Part shown: positions 29,945 through 61,601 of the stretch, one piece after another
How positions within the stretch are numbered: the first letter of the stretch is position 1
Layout of the letters: every line of letters starts with the position of its first letter
Assembly: GCA_028277885.1 (NCBI GenBank)
Contig: JANQFK010000053.1
Location: 1 to 64,000 of the forward strand
Reading direction: 5' to 3'
From: Myxococcota bacterium
GTDB lineage: Bacteria; Myxococcota_A; UBA9160; UBA6930
Length of the DNA: 64,000 bases
Made by a program: the position numbers and the translations under genes
Notes under the pieces: model-generated
What the model was told of the DNA's origin: nothing
The model's input: the letters and a program-made list of their open reading frames with translations, nothing else
Databases searched by the model: none

Positions 29945-29970
29945 TCAAGTAGGGGGGTTGGGCTCCCGAT
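29945..29970 (+). promoter_or_regulatory. Sigma28-like promoter of the TonB receptor-YfiR-MCP operon
   Basis: TCAAGT (29945-29950), 14 bases, CCCGAT (29965-29970). Transcription would start near 29977, about 70 bases before the ATG at 30048, and drive all three genes. Confidence 0.55.
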
Positions 29971-30047
29971 CTGCCCACTGGCTGCATCCAGGTGTGACCG
30001 GGGGCACGCATCGCGTCCTCGCTCGACACCGGGCAAGGAGGGATGCC

Positions 30048-32090
30048 ATGCCCGACCCGAATCGACGCCGCGCGATCCTCACCGGGCTCGTTGCCCTCGG
30101 GATCCTGGCCGCAAGCCCGGCCGGGGCCGGAACCCCGCCGGTCTCCGCGGGCGATCTCGCCGAGCTGAGCCTGGAAGCGCTGATGGACCTCGAGGTCACC
30201 TCGGTCTCCAAGAAGGCCAGCAAGCTCTCGGACTCGCCGGCCGCGATCTACGTCATCACCAACGAGGACATCCGCCGCTCCGGCGCGACCAGCATCCCCG
30301 AGGCCCTGCGCATGGTTCCGGGCGTGCAGGTGGCCCAGATCTCCGCCAACCGCTGGGCCATCAGCGCGCGCGGCTTCAACGGCGAGTTCGCCAACAAGCT
30401 GCTGGTGCTGATCGACGGCCGCAGCGTCTACACGCCCCTCTTCTCCGGCGTCTTCTGGGACGTCCAGGACGTGATGCTCGAGGACATCGATCGCGTCGAG
30501 GTGATCCGCGGGCCCGGCGCGACCCTGTGGGGCGCCAACGCGGTGAACGGCGTGATCAACATCATCACCCGCACCGCGGAGGAGACCCAGGGAGGCCTCG
30601 TCAGCACCGGCTTCGGCAGCGAGGAGCGCGGCTTCGGCTCCTTCCGCTGGGGCGGCGAGGCGGCGGAGGGCCTCCACTACCGGGTCTACGGCAAGTACTT
30701 CGACCGCGACTCCTTCAAGGACATGAACGGCAACAACGCCCGGGACGAGTGGGAGGTCACTCGCGGCGGCTTCCGCATGGACTGGGACGTCGACGAGGAC
30801 GACCTCCTCACGTTCCAGGGCGACTTCTACCGGGGCGAGGTCGGCGAGCGCCACCTCACCGTGGACGCCCTGGTGCCGGCCCCGGCCACCACCCTGCGCA
30901 ACGAGGACGTGGACATCGAGGGCTGGAACGTGCTGGGTCGCTGGACCCACACCTTCTCGCCGACCTCCGAGGGAAGCGTCCAGTTCTACGCGGACCGGAC
31001 CAAGCGCGACATCGAGTTCGCGTCGGAGGCCCGGGACACCCTGGACCTCGACCTGCAGCACCGCTTCGGCGTGGGCGACCGCCACGACGTGGTCTGGGGC
31101 GGCGGCTTCCGCTGGACCAAGGATCGCACCCAGGACAGCCTGCGCGTCCACTTCACCCCGGAGCAGCGCCGCGACAGCCTGCTCAGCGCCTTCGTCCAGG
31201 ACGAGATCGAGCTGATCGAGAACCGGCTCTCCTTCACCCTGGGCTCGAAGTTCGAGTACAACGACTACACGGGGTTCGAGTACCAGCCCAGCGGGCGCCT
31301 GCTCTACAAGCCCCACGAGCACCACACGCTCTGGAGCTCCGTGGCCCGGGCCGTGCGGACGCCCTCGCGGGCCGACGACGACGTCTCCCTGGTGCAGGAC
31401 ATCGCGCCCCCGGGCGGCCCGCCGCTGTTCTTGGGCACGGACCAGATCATCCAGCTGGACGGCAACACGGACATCACGTCCGAGCGGATGCTGGCCTACG
31501 AGGCGGGCTACCGGTACATCCCGTCGCCCCGGTTCTCCGCGGACCTCGCGCTCTTCTACAACGACTACTCGAACCTGCGCAGCGTCGAGGGCGTGGGGGC
31601 GGACTTCGTCACCGCCGCGCCGAGCGTGATCGTCCTCAGCACCTTCGGCAACAACTTCAGCGGTCGCGCCTACGGCGCCGAGCTGGCCAGCCAGTGGGAG
31701 GTGCGCCCCTGGTGGCGGATCAGCGGCAGCTACTCCTTCATCAACCTCGACCTGAACGCCGAGAGCGACTCCGCGGACGTGACCACCGAGATGGGCGAGG
31801 AGGGCAACGTCCCGACCCACATGTTCCACCTGCGCTCCTTCGTGGACCTGCCGCGCAACTTCGAGTTCGACACGCTGCTCTACTACGTGGAGAACCTCTC
31901 CCAGGGCGACGTCGAGAGCTACGTGCGCGTGGATGCCCGCCTGGGCTGGCGGGCTCGCGACGACCTGCGCCTCAGTCTGGTGATGCAGAACCTGCAGGAC
32001 AGCCGCCATGCGGAGTTCAACGACACGCTGCTCTGGCCGTCCAGCGAGGTCGAGCGAGCCGTCTACGGAAAGCTGGAGTGGACGTTCTAG
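30048..32090 (+). CDS. TonB-dependent outer membrane receptor (plug plus barrel)
   Basis: This 680-residue outer-membrane receptor starts at ATG 30048, with a strong AAGGAGG 7 bases upstream. A cleavable signal peptide spans about residues 1-27 (RRRAILTGLVALGILAASPAGA). The plug domain starts at LSLEALMDLEVTSVSKKASKLSDSPAAIYVITNEDIRRSGATSIPEALRMVPGVQV and runs to about residue 170. The 22-strand beta-barrel follows, ending in aromatic SEVERAVYGKLEWTF with terminal Phe. The start of the mature protein (LTELSLEELM-like) matches a receptor subgroup that lacks a classic TonB box and is often found next to YfiR genes and sensor kinases. Substrate unknown; it may work as a signal receptor rather than a nutrient importer. 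It overlaps the YfiR gene by 13 bases. Confidence 0.93.
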   Translation: MPDPNRRRAILTGLVALGILAASPAGAGTPPVSAGDLAELSLEALMDLEVTSVSKKASKLSDSPAAIYVITNEDIRRSGATSIPEALRMVPGVQVAQISANRWAISARGFNGEFANKLLVLIDGRSVYTPLFSGVFWDVQDVMLEDIDRVEVIRGPGATLWGANAVNGVINIITRTAEETQGGLVSTGFGSEERGFGSFRWGGEAAEGLHYRVYGKYFDRDSFKDMNGNNARDEWEVTRGGFRMDWDVDEDDLLTFQGDFYRGEVGERHLTVDALVPAPATTLRNEDVDIEGWNVLGRWTHTFSPTSEGSVQFYADRTKRDIEFASEARDTLDLDLQHRFGVGDRHDVVWGGGFRWTKDRTQDSLRVHFTPEQRRDSLLSAFVQDEIELIENRLSFTLGSKFEYNDYTGFEYQPSGRLLYKPHEHHTLWSSVARAVRTPSRADDDVSLVQDIAPPGGPPLFLGTDQIIQLDGNTDITSERMLAYEAGYRYIPSPRFSADLALFYNDYSNLRSVEGVGADFVTAAPSVIVLSTFGNNFSGRAYGAELASQWEVRPWWRISGSYSFINLDLNAESDSADVTTEMGEEGNVPTHMFHLRSFVDLPRNFEFDTLLYYVENLSQGDVESYVRVDARLGWRARDDLRLSLVMQNLQDSRHAEFNDTLLWPSSEVERAVYGKLEWTF

Positions 32091-32632
32091 ACGCGGACGC
32101 CGAAGGGCGCCCGGGCGCCGCACGAAGCAGCAGCCTCATCCTGGTTCTCGGCCTCGCGGCCGGGATGCTGGGCGCCAGCGGGCCCGGCGAGTACCAGGTG
32201 AAGGCCGCCTTCCTGTTCAACTTCGCGAAGTTCGTGGAGTGGCCGGGCGGCGCCATGGCGTCCGGACGCGAGTTCTCGATCTGCGTCGTCGGCGACGGCG
32301 ACGTCTCCGAGGAGCTCGAGGCCGTGGTGACGGGTCGCGACATCGACGGCAAGCCCGTGGCGGTGCGGACCCTGTCGGACCCGACGGCGGGCGCGGGCTG
32401 CCAGATCCTCTTCGCCATCGACGACGCCGCCGCCGCCGAGGCCCGCGACAGCTCGCCTCCCGGGACGCTCACCGTGGGGCAGAGCCAGGGCTTCGCGCGC
32501 CAGGGCGGGATGATCAACTTCATCCTGGTCGACAAGAAGGTGCGCTTCGAGGTCAACAAGCGGAGCGCCGAGACGGCGGGCCTCTCGATCAGCTCGCACC
32601 TCCTGAAGCTCGCCCACGACGTGTACGAGTAG
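32078..32632 (+). CDS. yfiR: YfiR-family (DUF4154) periplasmic regulator
   Basis: This 184-residue exported protein starts at GTG 32078, overlapping the end of the receptor gene by 13 bases, which implies translational coupling. A signal peptide covers about residues 1-36 (LILVLGLAAGMLGASG). The mature start YQVKAAFLFNFAKFVEWP is the YfiR hallmark. It is followed by FSICVVGDGDV, GCQILFAIDD, GFARQGGMINFILVDKKVRFEVNKRSAETAGLSISSHLLKLAHDVY, also diagnostic. In Pseudomonas YfiR binds and represses the diguanylate cyclase YfiN through its periplasmic part. Here the next gene encodes a sensor with the same kind of periplasmic domain but a chemotaxis-type output, so YfiR may control it. Two cysteines (positions about 69 and 109) could form the known disulfide. 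Confidence 0.93.
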   Translation: MDVLDADAEGRPGAARSSSLILVLGLAAGMLGASGPGEYQVKAAFLFNFAKFVEWPGGAMASGREFSICVVGDGDVSEELEAVVTGRDIDGKPVAVRTLSDPTAGAGCQILFAIDDAAAAEARDSSPPGTLTVGQSQGFARQGGMINFILVDKKVRFEVNKRSAETAGLSISSHLLKLAHDVYE

Positions 32633-32647
32633 GGGGCGAAGCCCGGG

Positions 32648-34678
32648 ATGTCCGCCTTCCGCGACCGCTCGCTCCGTCGCAAGCTCACCACCACGGTCAT
32701 GCTGACCACGGGGTGCGCGCTGCTGCTCGCCTTCGCGGTGCTCACCGTGAACGAGGTGGTGACGGCGCGGCGCTCCCTGGTCGAGGGCGCCCAGACCCTG
32801 GCTGGCGTGGTCGGGATCAACAGCACCGCCGCCCTGATGTTCGACGATCCGGCGGCGGCCGAGGAGACGCTCTCCGCCCTCGCGGCGGACCGCAACCTCG
32901 AGGGCGCGGCGCTCTACCGCACCGACGGATCGCTGTTCGCCTCCTTCGTCCGGAAGGAGGGCAGTGCGGTGCCCGACCGGCCGGGCCGCGGGCAGGCCTT
33001 CGGCGACGGCTCCCTCGAGGTCTTCCACGAGATCGTGGTCCAGGAGGAGCCCATCGGGACCCTCTACCTGCGCTCGAGCACCCGGGCCATGATGGCCAAC
33101 ATCCGCATCTTCGTGGCGGTGCTGTGCGTCGTCATGGCCGTCGCGATGACCCTCGCCTCCCTGGTGGCGACGAGCCTGCGCCGCGCGGTGCAGGGGCCCA
33201 TCGACGCCCTGGTGGAGCGCTCCGAGGCCATGGCCCGCGGCGACCTCGGCACCGAGGTTCCCGTGGTCAGCCGGGACGAGATCGGCGTGCTGGCGAGCAG
33301 CTTCAACAAGATGGGCCAGAGCCTCCGGGCCGTGGTGGTCCAGGTCCGCCACAACATCCGCGACCTCGCCGGCGTGGGCGAGACCCTGGAGACGACCAGC
33401 GCGAACGTCGTGGCCGAGACCCACCGCCAGGGCAGGACCATCGAGTCGGCGGCCGAGTCCATCGGGCGGGTGACGAGCTCGATCCACGAGGTGAACTCCG
33501 GAGTCAACGAGCTCGCCGAGACGGGCCGTGGCACGTCGCGCTCCATCGCGAAGATGGGCGGCTCCATCGCCCGGGTCGCGGGCCGCATGGACGAGCTGGC
33601 CCCCGCCATCGAGACCACCTCCACGGCCATCGGCCAGCTCACGGCGAGCGTCGAGGAGATCGCCGACAACGTGGGCACGCTGAACGACGCCACGGCCACC
33701 ACCGAGCGCTCCCTCACCGAGCTCACCGCCTCGGTGCGCAGCGTCCGCGACAACGCCCAGCGCAGCCACGAGCTCTCCCAGGACGCCCACCACGAAGCCG
33801 AGCGCGGCATGCGCTCGGTGAACGACACCATCGCGTCGATGCACGAGATCGAGACCAGCTTCAAGCGGCTCGAGGAGATCGTGACCCGCCTCGCCGAGCG
33901 CTCCAACGAGATCGGCGAGATCGTGAAGGTGATCGACGAGGTGGCGGACGAGACCCAGCTGCTCTCGCTGAACGCGGCCATCATCGCCTCCCAGGCCGGC
34001 GAGCAGGGCAGTGCCTTCGCGGTGGTGGCCGACGAGGTGAAGCGCCTCGCCGAGCGCACCGCGCTCTCCACCCGGGAGATCGCCGACCTGGTCCAGGGCA
34101 TGCGCTCCGAGTCCGGCAATGCGGTCCGCGCCATGGCGGACGGCGCCGAGACCGTGGAGCGGGGCGTGGGACGCTCCCAGGAGGCGGGCGACCGGCTGCG
34201 TGGGATCATGGAGAGCTCGTCGCTCTCGAAGTCCATGGTGGACGAGATCGCCGGGGCCACCGAGAGCCAGGCCGCGGCCCTGGTGCGGGTCGAGGAGGCC
34301 ATGTCCCAGGTGCGGGCCTTCGTGGAGCAGATCCACCGCTCCACCCAGGAGCAGAGCCGGGCCAGCGGCGAGATCGCCAACATGGTCGAGCAGGTGCAGG
34401 CCCTGGGGAACGAGGTGAAGACCGCCACCGTGGCCCAGACCCGGGAGAGCGGGCAGATCACCGAGGCCATGGAGGGCGTCACGCGCATGATCGACCGCAT
34501 CTCCCAGGCCACCGAGGAGCAGCGCCGGGAGAGCCAGCAGATCGACCGCGCCCTCGGCGTGTTCCGGGAGCTGGCCGACGAGAGCGTGCGGCGCGTCGCC
34601 GAGCTCAAGCGGGTGACCGCGACCCTGGTGGAGCGCTCCGAGCAGCTCGACGCGGAGATCGGACGCTTCACGGTCTGA
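32648..34678 (+). CDS. CHASE8-HAMP-MCP signal transducer
   Basis: This 676-residue inner-membrane receptor has transmembrane helix 1 at about 14-34 and a small periplasmic CHASE8-like domain at about 35-150 (AQTLAGVVGINSTAALMFDDPAAAEETLSAL, as in YfiN). Helix 2 lies at about 150-175, HAMP at 175-230, and a long helical cytoplasmic signalling region runs to 676. The tip reads ADETQLLSLNAAIIASQAGEQGSAFAVVADEVKRLAERT (about 432-470), close to the canonical chemoreceptor hairpin but with Ile-Ala-Ser in place of Glu-Ala-Ala, so coupling to CheA/CheW may differ. YfiN uses a GGDEF output with this sensor; here an MCP output is used. It is third gene of the TonB receptor-YfiR operon. Confidence 0.93.
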   Translation: MSAFRDRSLRRKLTTTVMLTTGCALLLAFAVLTVNEVVTARRSLVEGAQTLAGVVGINSTAALMFDDPAAAEETLSALAADRNLEGAALYRTDGSLFASFVRKEGSAVPDRPGRGQAFGDGSLEVFHEIVVQEEPIGTLYLRSSTRAMMANIRIFVAVLCVVMAVAMTLASLVATSLRRAVQGPIDALVERSEAMARGDLGTEVPVVSRDEIGVLASSFNKMGQSLRAVVVQVRHNIRDLAGVGETLETTSANVVAETHRQGRTIESAAESIGRVTSSIHEVNSGVNELAETGRGTSRSIAKMGGSIARVAGRMDELAPAIETTSTAIGQLTASVEEIADNVGTLNDATATTERSLTELTASVRSVRDNAQRSHELSQDAHHEAERGMRSVNDTIASMHEIETSFKRLEEIVTRLAERSNEIGEIVKVIDEVADETQLLSLNAAIIASQAGEQGSAFAVVADEVKRLAERTALSTREIADLVQGMRSESGNAVRAMADGAETVERGVGRSQEAGDRLRGIMESSSLSKSMVDEIAGATESQAAALVRVEEAMSQVRAFVEQIHRSTQEQSRASGEIANMVEQVQALGNEVKTATVAQTRESGQITEAMEGVTRMIDRISQATEEQRRESQQIDRALGVFRELADESVRRVAELKRVTATLVERSEQLDAEIGRFTV

Positions 34679-37106: not shown

Positions 37107-38657
37107 TCAGGCCGACGCGTCGGCGGTGCTCTCCACCCGGCGGCAGACGAAGCGGTTGCGGCCCGCCTCCTTGGCCTCGTAGAGGCAGGCGTCGGCGAGG
37201 GCCAGCAGGGCCTCGCCGTCCTCCGCGGACGCCACGCGCTCCACGCAGGCGCCGCCCACGCTGGCCGTCACGCTCAGGTCGGGCTCCCCGTCCCGGGAGA
37301 GGGCGGTCTCGGCCACGCGCTTGCGGATCCGCTCGGCCACGGTCTCGAGGATCTCCAGGGTGGTGTTCCCGAGCACCACCACGAACTCCTCGCCGCCGTA
37401 GCGGGCGGCCAGGTCGGTGTCGCGGGTGGCCTCGGAGAGGCAGCGGGCCACGAGCTTCAGCACCTCGTCGCCGGTCTGGTGCCCGTGGGTGTCGTTGAAC
37501 TTCTTGAAGTGGTCGACGTCCACCACCAGCAGGCCGAGGGCGTTCTCGCTGGGCCCGGAGATGCGCGCCGCGACCACGCGCTCGAGGGTCTCGTCGAACT
37601 GGGCCCGGTTCGGGATGCCGGTGAGCTTGTCCGTGGTGGCCTTGGACTCGAGCTCCTGGTTCTTGCGCTCGAGCTCCTCGGCCCGGGAGGTGGTCTGCTC
37701 GAGGTCGAGGGCCGCTCCCAGGCTGATCTGCACCATCTCCATGCGGGCGCGGTCGAGGATGCCCTGATAGGACTCCCCATCCACGTCCATGTTCAGCATG
37801 CTCGCCATCTCGGAAACGTCCTGCTCGAGGCTCACCACGAAGGCGTCGATCTCGTCCTCGGAGACGCCGCAGTACTCGGTGCCCAGGGCGTAGAGGGTCT
37901 TCAGCGCCGAGCCGCACTGTTGGGGACGGCACAGCACCGTGGCCGTGGCGTTGGCGAGGGCCATGATGCGTGCCAGCATGCCGACCGGCTCCTCGGCGTC
38001 GTCGGAGACGTGCTCGGGGTCGCCCCACCCGCGCACGGTCTGGACGATAAGGGGCGGCAGCTGCCAGGAATCCAGCAGCGCGGCTCCCACCTCGTGGGAG
38101 TCGTAGCCGAGCTGCTCCGCCTCGAGGGAGGCCGGCGGGAGCTCCCCTTCGGCCTGCTGGATGAGCGCCCCGTACTCGTCGGGGATGCACTCCGCCATCA
38201 CGATCTGGCCGAGGCGCCCGAGCAGGCCGCACAGGAAGGCCTCGTCACCGTGCGGGTTGCGCACCAGCCGCGCCAGGGCTCGGCCCGCCACCGCCATGGT
38301 GAGGCTGCGGCGCCAGTAGTCGATGTAGTCGAAGCCCCGGTCGCTCTTGCGCGGCAGCTCGTCGGTGAGGGAGAAGCTCAGGGCCATGAGCTTCACGGTC
38401 TTCAGTCCCAGCCGCATGGTCGCCGCGTCCAGGGAGGAGACGGCGTCGCCGCGACGGAACATGGAGGAGTTGGCGAGCTTGAGGATCTTTGCCGAGAGGG
38501 CCGGGTCGCGGGAGAGGATCGCGGCGAGATCGTCGATGGTGGCGTTCTCGTCGTTGCTGACGCGCAGCACCTCGAGCGCGACCGTCGGAGGACTCGGCAG
38601 CTTCTCGGCCTTGGCGATCGCGCCCGGAAGCCGATCGAGCACGCTGGCCTCGCCCAT
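37107..38657 (-). CDS. HDOD-GGDEF diguanylate cyclase
   Basis: This 516-residue cytosolic protein starts at ATG 38657, with GGAGGGG upstream. Residues about 12-210 form an HDOD domain (LPSPPTVALEVLRVSNDENATIDDLAAILSRDPALSAKILKLANSS, then a GYDSHEVGAALLDSWQLPP block). A helical linker (about 215-350, ending SRAEELERKNQELESKATTD) leads to a GGDEF domain. The active loop is RYGGEEF (GGEEF at 421-425) and the inhibitory site RDTD (412-415) stands 5 residues before it. It should make cyclic-di-GMP with product inhibition, opposite to the EAL protein at 0.96 kb. A sigma28-like promoter at 38719-38744 drives it. It converges on the ATPase-lipoprotein unit. Confidence 0.95.
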   Translation of the reverse strand: MGEASVLDRLPGAIAKAEKLPSPPTVALEVLRVSNDENATIDDLAAILSRDPALSAKILKLANSSMFRRGDAVSSLDAATMRLGLKTVKLMALSFSLTDELPRKSDRGFDYIDYWRRSLTMAVAGRALARLVRNPHGDEAFLCGLLGRLGQIVMAECIPDEYGALIQQAEGELPPASLEAEQLGYDSHEVGAALLDSWQLPPLIVQTVRGWGDPEHVSDDAEEPVGMLARIMALANATATVLCRPQQCGSALKTLYALGTEYCGVSEDEIDAFVVSLEQDVSEMASMLNMDVDGESYQGILDRARMEMVQISLGAALDLEQTTSRAEELERKNQELESKATTDKLTGIPNRAQFDETLERVVAARISGPSENALGLLVVDVDHFKKFNDTHGHQTGDEVLKLVARCLSEATRDTDLAARYGGEEFVVVLGNTTLEILETVAERIRKRVAETALSRDGEPDLSVTASVGGACVERVASAEDGEALLALADACLYEAKEAGRNRFVCRRVESTADASA

Positions 38658-60311: not shown

Positions 60312-61601
60312 GTGCGACTCTCCCTCGCCCACAAGTTCGTCCTCGCCTCGCTGGCGGTGGCCGCGGTGGCGGTGGGCCTGCCCGCCGCGCTGCGCTCCCT
60401 GGGCGTGTTCGTGCCCCCGATCGCCGGGGGGCTGCTCTCGCTGTGCGCCGGCGCCGGCCTGGGCTGGGCCTCGAGCCGCCGGCTGCTGCGCAGCTACCCC
60501 GCCCTCCTCGAGGTCGCCTCGCGGATCGGCGAGGGCGACCTGAGCGCGCCGGCGGAGCTCGGCGCCCGCAGCCGTCTGCCCGACGAGCACCACGACCTCG
60601 CCGGGCGCATCGTCGCCATGCTCGAGCAGCTGCGCGCCCTGGTGGGCCACGTGCAGCAGTCCTCCGAGAGCGTCTCGGCCTCGGTGGCCGAGCTCACGAG
60701 CAACGCCGACGGCATGTCGGCGGGCAGCGAGGAGATCTCCCGCACCGTCGCCGAGCTGGCCGAGGGCGCCCGCACCCAGCAGTCGCTGCTCCAGCAGGTG
60801 AGCGGCCTGATCCGCGACGTCCACGGCGCCATCGACGTGAACGCCTCCCGGGCGCGCGAGGCCTTCGGCTTCGCCGCCGAGGCGAACCAGAAGGCCCACG
60901 CCGGCGTGGACGTCTCGCGCCTCGCCATCGAGAAGATGCGCACGGTGTTCGAGCACGTCGAGCAGGCGGGCGAGCGCGTGTTCCAGCTCGAGGCGAAGAC
61001 CCGCCACGTGCACCAGATCACCGAGATCATCACCAGCGTCGCGTCGCGTACCAACCTGCTCTCGCTGAACGCCTCCATCGAGGCCGCCCGGGCCGGCGAG
61101 GCGGGGCGGGGCTTCGCGGTGGTGGCCGACGAGATCCGCAAGCTCGCCGAGAGCGCGGCCAGCAGCGCCGACGAGATCTCGAAGCTGATCCACGAGATCG
61201 AGGCCGACACCCAGAGCGTGGCCGACGCCATGCGCCAGTCGGGCCAGATGATCACCGAGGGTCGCGAGGACGTGAATACCATCGCGTCGTCCCTGGGCCA
61301 GATCCGGGCCGCCGTGGGCGAGGCCTCGGCGCGCGCCGAGGAGATCTTCCAGGAGGCCGACAAGCAGGCCGACGACGCGGGCCGGCTGGTCTCGTCCATG
61401 GAGGAGATCGCGCGGGTCTCCCAGGGCACCGCCGGCTCCGTCGAGCGCGTGGACGGCACCTTCCGCCGCCAGCGCGAGGCGACCTCGGAGCTCGTCGAGG
61501 GCACCCGGTCGCTCGCGGCCCTCGCCGAGGAGCTGCGCGGCGTGTCCCGGCGCTTCCGCACCCGCGGGCCCATGCACGGCCCCGCCGACGAGGGGGTCTA
61601 G
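60312..61601 (+). CDS. Methyl-accepting chemotaxis protein with minimal sensor
   Basis: This 429-residue membrane-bound chemoreceptor starts at GTG 60312. Two close membrane segments (about 9-27 and 33-53) leave almost no periplasmic loop, so no ligand domain is present. A HAMP-like linker (about 55-105) leads to an MCP signalling domain. The tip is [41 protein letters not shown] (about 236-276), near-canonical with Glu-Ala-Ala. It probably senses an internal or membrane signal. The operon order is MCP, CheW, CheY, CheA, a compact chemosensory unit. No CheR or CheB is seen before the window ends. Confidence 0.93.

Follow-up and report, generated by a model that had tools for sequence, protein, structure and literature searches.

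In the window, by which we mean the whole analysed stretch of 64,000 nucleotides of a Myxococcota bacterium, the genes of a TonB-dependent receptor, a YfiR-like periplasmic protein and a CHASE8-HAMP chemoreceptor (methyl-accepting chemotaxis protein, MCP) form one tight unit on the same strand, as determined by translation and profile searches. On balance, we favour the view that this unit is a YfiR-CHASE8 transmembrane relay with the output switched to a chemoreceptor, in which the TonB receptor modulates YfiR and the CheA kinase encoded on contig C28 (CheA-A) carries the output. At the sequence level, the parts of the relay, the YfiR-MCP linkage, the contact residues, the tip match and the co-occurrence with CheA-A are all apparent.

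The features of the operon are listed in Table 1. Translation and profiles confirmed the three tightly linked genes proposed in the sequence-only reading, with an overlap of 13 bases between the receptor and YfiR genes (32078-32090) followed by a gap of 15 bases before the MCP gene. The ATG of the receptor gene is located at 30048, not at 29945, and its stop codon ends at 32090. The operon is flanked by a GNAT acetyltransferase gene and an AAA ATPase gene (Pfam); a Pfam search of this locus revealed no YfiB lipoprotein in the operon or its flanking genes. Close to the operon, the opposite strand encodes a protein with a GGDEF-like motif (GGEEF; window 37107-38657).

Table 1. Positions in the window of the three operon genes and of the elements discussed in the text
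Feature	Coordinates	Strand	Basis
TonB-dependent receptor, TOL_0244 family, 680 aa	30048..32090	+	Pfam Plug and barrel; NCBIfam NF053590
N-terminal motif DLAELSLEALMDLEVTSVSKK, immediately before the plug; possible site of contact with YfiR or TonB (putative role)	30153..30215	+	Variants at other YfiR loci
Plug domain of the receptor	30225..30554	+	PF07715
YfiR-like periplasmic protein (DUF4154), GTG start, N-terminus signal-peptide-like	32078..32632	+	PF13689, NF053591, PDB YfiR profile and fold
YfiR Phe158 (P0002 numbering), equivalent to Phe162 of P. aeruginosa, the centre of the proposed YfiN-binding patch	32546..32548	+	Alignment
CHASE8-HAMP chemoreceptor (MCP), 676 aa, ATG start	32648..34678	+	Translation, Pfam
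CHASE8 periplasmic domain, residues 41-141	32768..33070	+	PF17152; structure model
AALMF, residues 61-65, corresponding to AAVVF, the YfiR-binding motif in YfiN	32828..32842	+	Alignment
HAMP domain, residues 177-228	33176..33331	+	PF00672
Signalling hairpin	33332..34675	+	Heptad count
Tip NAAIIASQAGE, residues 442-452	33971..34003	+	Sequence comparison

The receptor, which begins with LSLEALMDLEVTSVSKK just as had been read previously, scored 86 bits for the plug and 119 bits for the barrel in Pfam and 730 bits against the NCBIfam model NF053590 (TOL_0244; cut-off 645), with no Pfam match to an STN domain. Variants of its DLAELSLEALMDLEVTSVSKK motif were found upstream of YfiR at 25 named loci belonging to many phyla, and the remaining full-length plug receptors encoded in this genome showed no motif of this type before the plug. 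At one locus (L132) the order is inverted, so that the TonB-receptor-like protein, whose N-terminal motif is related, comes after YfiR, not before it; at another locus (L210), ECF sigma factor-like and anti-sigma factor-like genes lie close to a short piece of the plug of a similar TonB receptor.

Membership of the second protein in the YfiR family was revealed by profiles, with 139 bits for DUF4154/YfiR (PF13689, cut-off 24.9) and 139 bits for NF053591 (TOL_0243, cut-off 125). The YfiR profile also matched the PDB YfiR (4.5e-11), whereas phmmer with the single YfiR sequence found no YfiR match in the PDB. The best PDB matches of its AlphaFold model, which is confident (mean pLDDT 83), were YfiR crystal structures (Foldseek E 1.6e-08). 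Phe158 of this protein is invariant in alignment A2 and aligns with TFEAN of the PDB YfiR.

The third protein matched CHASE8 with 59 bits (PF17152, cut-off 27), which bears out its previously assumed CHASE8-like nature, and MCPsignal with 152 bits; GGDEF was not matched in Pfam, in accord with the MCP output read earlier in its place. The likewise confident AlphaFold model of residues 1-172 (pLDDT 89) resembles PAS/Cache sensors, including the LapD-type periplasmic domain. In the alignment with E. coli YfiN, AALMF falls opposite EAAVVFAD, and all 42 sequences compared share Phe65. Insensitivity to YfiR was mapped to the AAVVF motif in the periplasmic PAS domain of YfiN, with YfiR Val160, Phe162 and Leu183 proposed as the opposite side of the contact, in Malone 2012 (PMC3375315). 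According to the alignments, the proposed YfiR-YfiN contact residues are retained on both YfiR and the MCP; this is homology evidence suggestive of an interaction, and it agrees with the YfiR contact surface expected in the sequence-only reading.

The signalling hairpin comprises 224 residues from HAMP to Glu452 of the tip and 224 residues back, that is, 32 + 32 heptads, and by counting from the HAMP end and the tip it is consistent with class 64H (heptad class names from PMC6943060). In the tip, LNAAIIASQAGEQG, Ile-Ala-Ser replaces Glu-Ala-Ala of canonical receptors. The same tip type is present on the genome's second orphan MCP (contig C39) and on the MCPs of the CheA-A cluster in relatives, and for this reason the possibility that the tip is peculiar to the operon was rejected. 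Thus, the earlier suggestion that the altered tip implies a special CheA/CheW partner holds insofar as this kind of tip goes with a single CheA/CheW set, but this property is class-wide and not specific to the operon.

MCP homologues matching along the length of the protein were detected in 28 of 97 relatives (35-47% identity, a few being cut by contig ends). In 24 of these 28, YfiR immediately precedes the MCP, including one partial YfiR (G024) and one cut by the contig end (G074), so that the linkage exceeds chance, while the TonB receptor is directly upstream in only eight (G004, G007, G012, G019, G035, G037, G052 and G060). Consequently, of the gene order proposed to be conserved in relatives, the YfiR-MCP pair stood and the receptor adjacency mostly did not. 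The four exceptions are G013 and G047, with an MCP lacking an adjoining YfiR, G054, where YfiR and the MCP are convergent, and G019, where the TonB receptor lies 124 bp before the MCP and YfiR is missing from the interval. Remnants of the pair were also observed: G077 and G078, both without CheA-A, have kept YfiR beside a broken or remnant MCP, and G049, which retains CheA-A, has an intact YfiR and only an MCP remnant (L189, L194 and L192, where YfiR is intact and the neighbouring MCP copy has a broken frame or is largely deleted).

Named genomes were scanned with the YfiR alignment, as the CHASE8-only alignment was too variable, and 80 YfiR loci were obtained. A TonB-receptor match ended within 400 bp upstream of YfiR at at least 49 of the 80 loci; it ended farther upstream at 12 more, where perhaps often only the plug half was matched. 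After omission of four next ORFs encoding non-sensors, one contig end, two fragments, six near-duplicates and three MCPs, 64 downstream proteins were scanned: all 64 contained CHASE8, 49 HATPase_c and five GGDEF, and MCPsignal was not among the 25 commonest families listed for this set, from which the three MCPs had been left out beforehand. The usual arrangement in named genomes is YfiR with a TonB receptor before it and a CHASE8 sensor after it, the sensor being a histidine kinase in most cases. The MCP-type loci of the scan were L080, L081, L102 and, in broken form, L090; of these four, three are labelled Myxococcota or Myxococcales, and the record of L081 reads only 'bacterium'. In the tree of YfiR + CHASE8 (quick search), the 19 MCP rows formed a single clade (SH-aLRT 99), and in our sample the MCP version is one clade in one order of Myxococcota, in which kinase-type YfiR loci occur as well (L190, L200, L203). 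The clade was neither recovered nor rejected in the YfiR-only tree (p-AU 0.83), the YfiR-only and CHASE8-only alignments being too short.

The arrangement resembles YfiBNR of P. aeruginosa (YfiR-DgcN-YfiB of E. coli) in pairing a YfiR-like protein with an adjacent CHASE8/HAMP membrane sensor that bears an AAxxF contact motif, and differs from it by the MCP output in place of GGDEF, by the TonB receptor upstream and by the absence of YfiB from the operon. The output swap itself is not new, since the replacement of GGDEF by MCP in YfiN relatives is stated in one Discussion sentence of Malone 2012 (PMC3375315); the main text of that article, however, mentions neither TonB nor a cognate CheA for the MCP-output YfiN-PAS sensors. 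The operon is also similar to the TOL_0244/TOL_0243/kinase set (NF053590, NF053591, NF053592), as both the receptor and YfiR exceed the cut-offs and the gene order matches that of kinase-type loci. Since these two proteins pass NCBIfam models of a kinase-output set, the triad is known to curators with a kinase output, but the third protein of the window reaches only 178 bits against the sensor-kinase cut-off of 194 (NF053592) and possesses an MCP hairpin, not a histidine kinase. As in the FecA/FpvA TonB-dependent transducers, a TonB receptor is thought to signal inward; unlike them, the receptor has no STN match and the operon no sigma/anti-sigma pair. No description of a TonB-YfiR-MCP unit or of its kinase was found in searches of an open-access library. 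The TonB receptor-YfiR-MCP unit, its restriction in our sample to one Myxococcota order and its CheA assignment appear to be new. As its components occur in other systems with another output, the unit represents a known module wired in a new way.

YfiBNR as a precedent leads one to expect that YfiR shifts the MCP between states and is itself controlled by an outer-membrane element. In the relay favoured here, periplasmic YfiR would use its C-terminal hydrophobic patch to dock on the CHASE8 AAxxF motif and would hold the MCP dimer in one signalling state, whichever sign this putative binding has. The TonB receptor, acting through its N-terminal segment or through ligand import, would alter the amount of YfiR free to bind; HAMP would relay the switch to the 64-heptad hairpin, the IIA[AS]Q tip of which may engage the CheA-A/CheW1/CheW2 array encoded on contig C28. 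CheR and CheB would then give adaptation, with the output directed to the CheY-type regulators of the contig C28 cluster. The presumed step from the TonB receptor to YfiR is the weakest one, because so few of the MCP-bearing relatives have the receptor adjacent (8/28). Most of the distant YfiR-YfiN systems lack YfiB (Malone 2012, PMC3375315), and a natural candidate for their input is the TonB receptor, given its place upstream of YfiR at most of the named loci; its position across phyla and the conserved N-terminal motif make it the best candidate for controlling YfiR. We therefore put forward, quite tentatively and as a proposition still open to doubt, that in YfiR systems without YfiB the TonB receptor is the outer-membrane partner, whose N-terminal segment binds or releases YfiR depending on occupancy or TonB work. 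If so, outer-membrane nutrient uptake would directly set kinase activity or, in the present case, a chemosensory array, and the Myxococcota version would constitute a route from an outer-membrane receptor via a periplasmic adaptor to that array. With a contact motif, a tip class and a cognate CheA to work from, each step of the relay can be tested.

Pseudomonas YfiR may respond to redox or envelope stress, and the core of the system could likewise be only YfiR and the MCP answering such stress, the TonB receptor being a co-transcribed transporter outside the relay. The far more constant linkage of YfiR (24/28) than of the receptor (8/28) speaks for this, as does a Cys pair of the window's YfiR and of several relatives, which aligns with two cysteines of Pseudomonas YfiR; considering, however, that the adjacency of TonB receptor and YfiR recurs over many phyla together with the conserved N-terminal motif, and that G019 retains the receptor beside the MCP even without YfiR, we regard such a restricted core as rather unlikely. 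It is less likely still that YfiR acts as a periplasmic binding protein presenting a TonB-imported ligand to CHASE8, in the way maltose-binding protein presents its ligand to Tar: the YfiR model does match a Rhodothermus marinus substrate-binding protein that has a single domain (5z6v, 6k1x; E about 1e-05) and the tryptophan-binding 3lft, and an FAxxGGxxNF segment is conserved in the alignment of TonB-linked YfiRs, but the YfiR structures match better (E 1.6e-08) and the repressor contact residues are kept.

The identity of the kinase has to be chosen from two CheA clusters in the window's genome, which contains three MCPs. The CheA-A cluster of contig C28 (L056 5365-17130) encodes a DUF4388 protein, two CheWs, a receiver-like/CheY protein, a HEAT-repeat protein, CheR, CheB and a GAF protein. 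No MCP was found in this cluster in the window's genome; in relatives it includes either a single MCP or a pair, the tips reading IIAAQ or IISAQ (10/10 examined). The CheA-B cluster is situated on the same contig as the operon, about 26 kb downstream (window 60312-64058, continuing to about 64650 of the contig), and encodes an MCP, CheW, CheY, CheA-B and a CheC-like protein. Despite this proximity, CheA-B was rejected as the partner, and feeding of the operon's MCP into it is to be considered very improbable: the tip of CheA-B's own MCP (60312-61601) is of the canonical EAARAGE type, G021 and G022 contain the operon's MCP and CheA-A without CheA-B, and none of the 14 CheA-B-only genomes contains an intact copy of the MCP. 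CheA-A, by contrast, is present in all 28 MCP-bearing relatives (at least 53% identity). The co-occurrence within the order gave Fisher p 6e-7 in a 2x2 test that ignores shared ancestry and was applied to incomplete MAGs, which weakens the statistics and not their direction. In 12 of the 14 CheA-B-only genomes, the MCP loci that were read showed no IIAAQ-type tip; the remaining two, G050 and G077, have one. The intact IIAAQ-tip MCP of G050, where CheA-A was not detected, counts against the CheA-A partnership, as does the MCP remnant of G049 despite its CheA-A; the broken or remnant MCPs of G077 and G078, both without CheA-A, speak for it. Taken together, these data indicate that the probable partner kinase of the MCP is CheA-A.

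As the assigned output of the relay, flagella failed: FliG was detected in only 12 of the 28 MCP-bearing genomes and, as the other 16 show none, the controlled behaviour is probably not only flagellar. The window's genome itself possesses FliG together with four PilT-family genes scoring over the cut-off.
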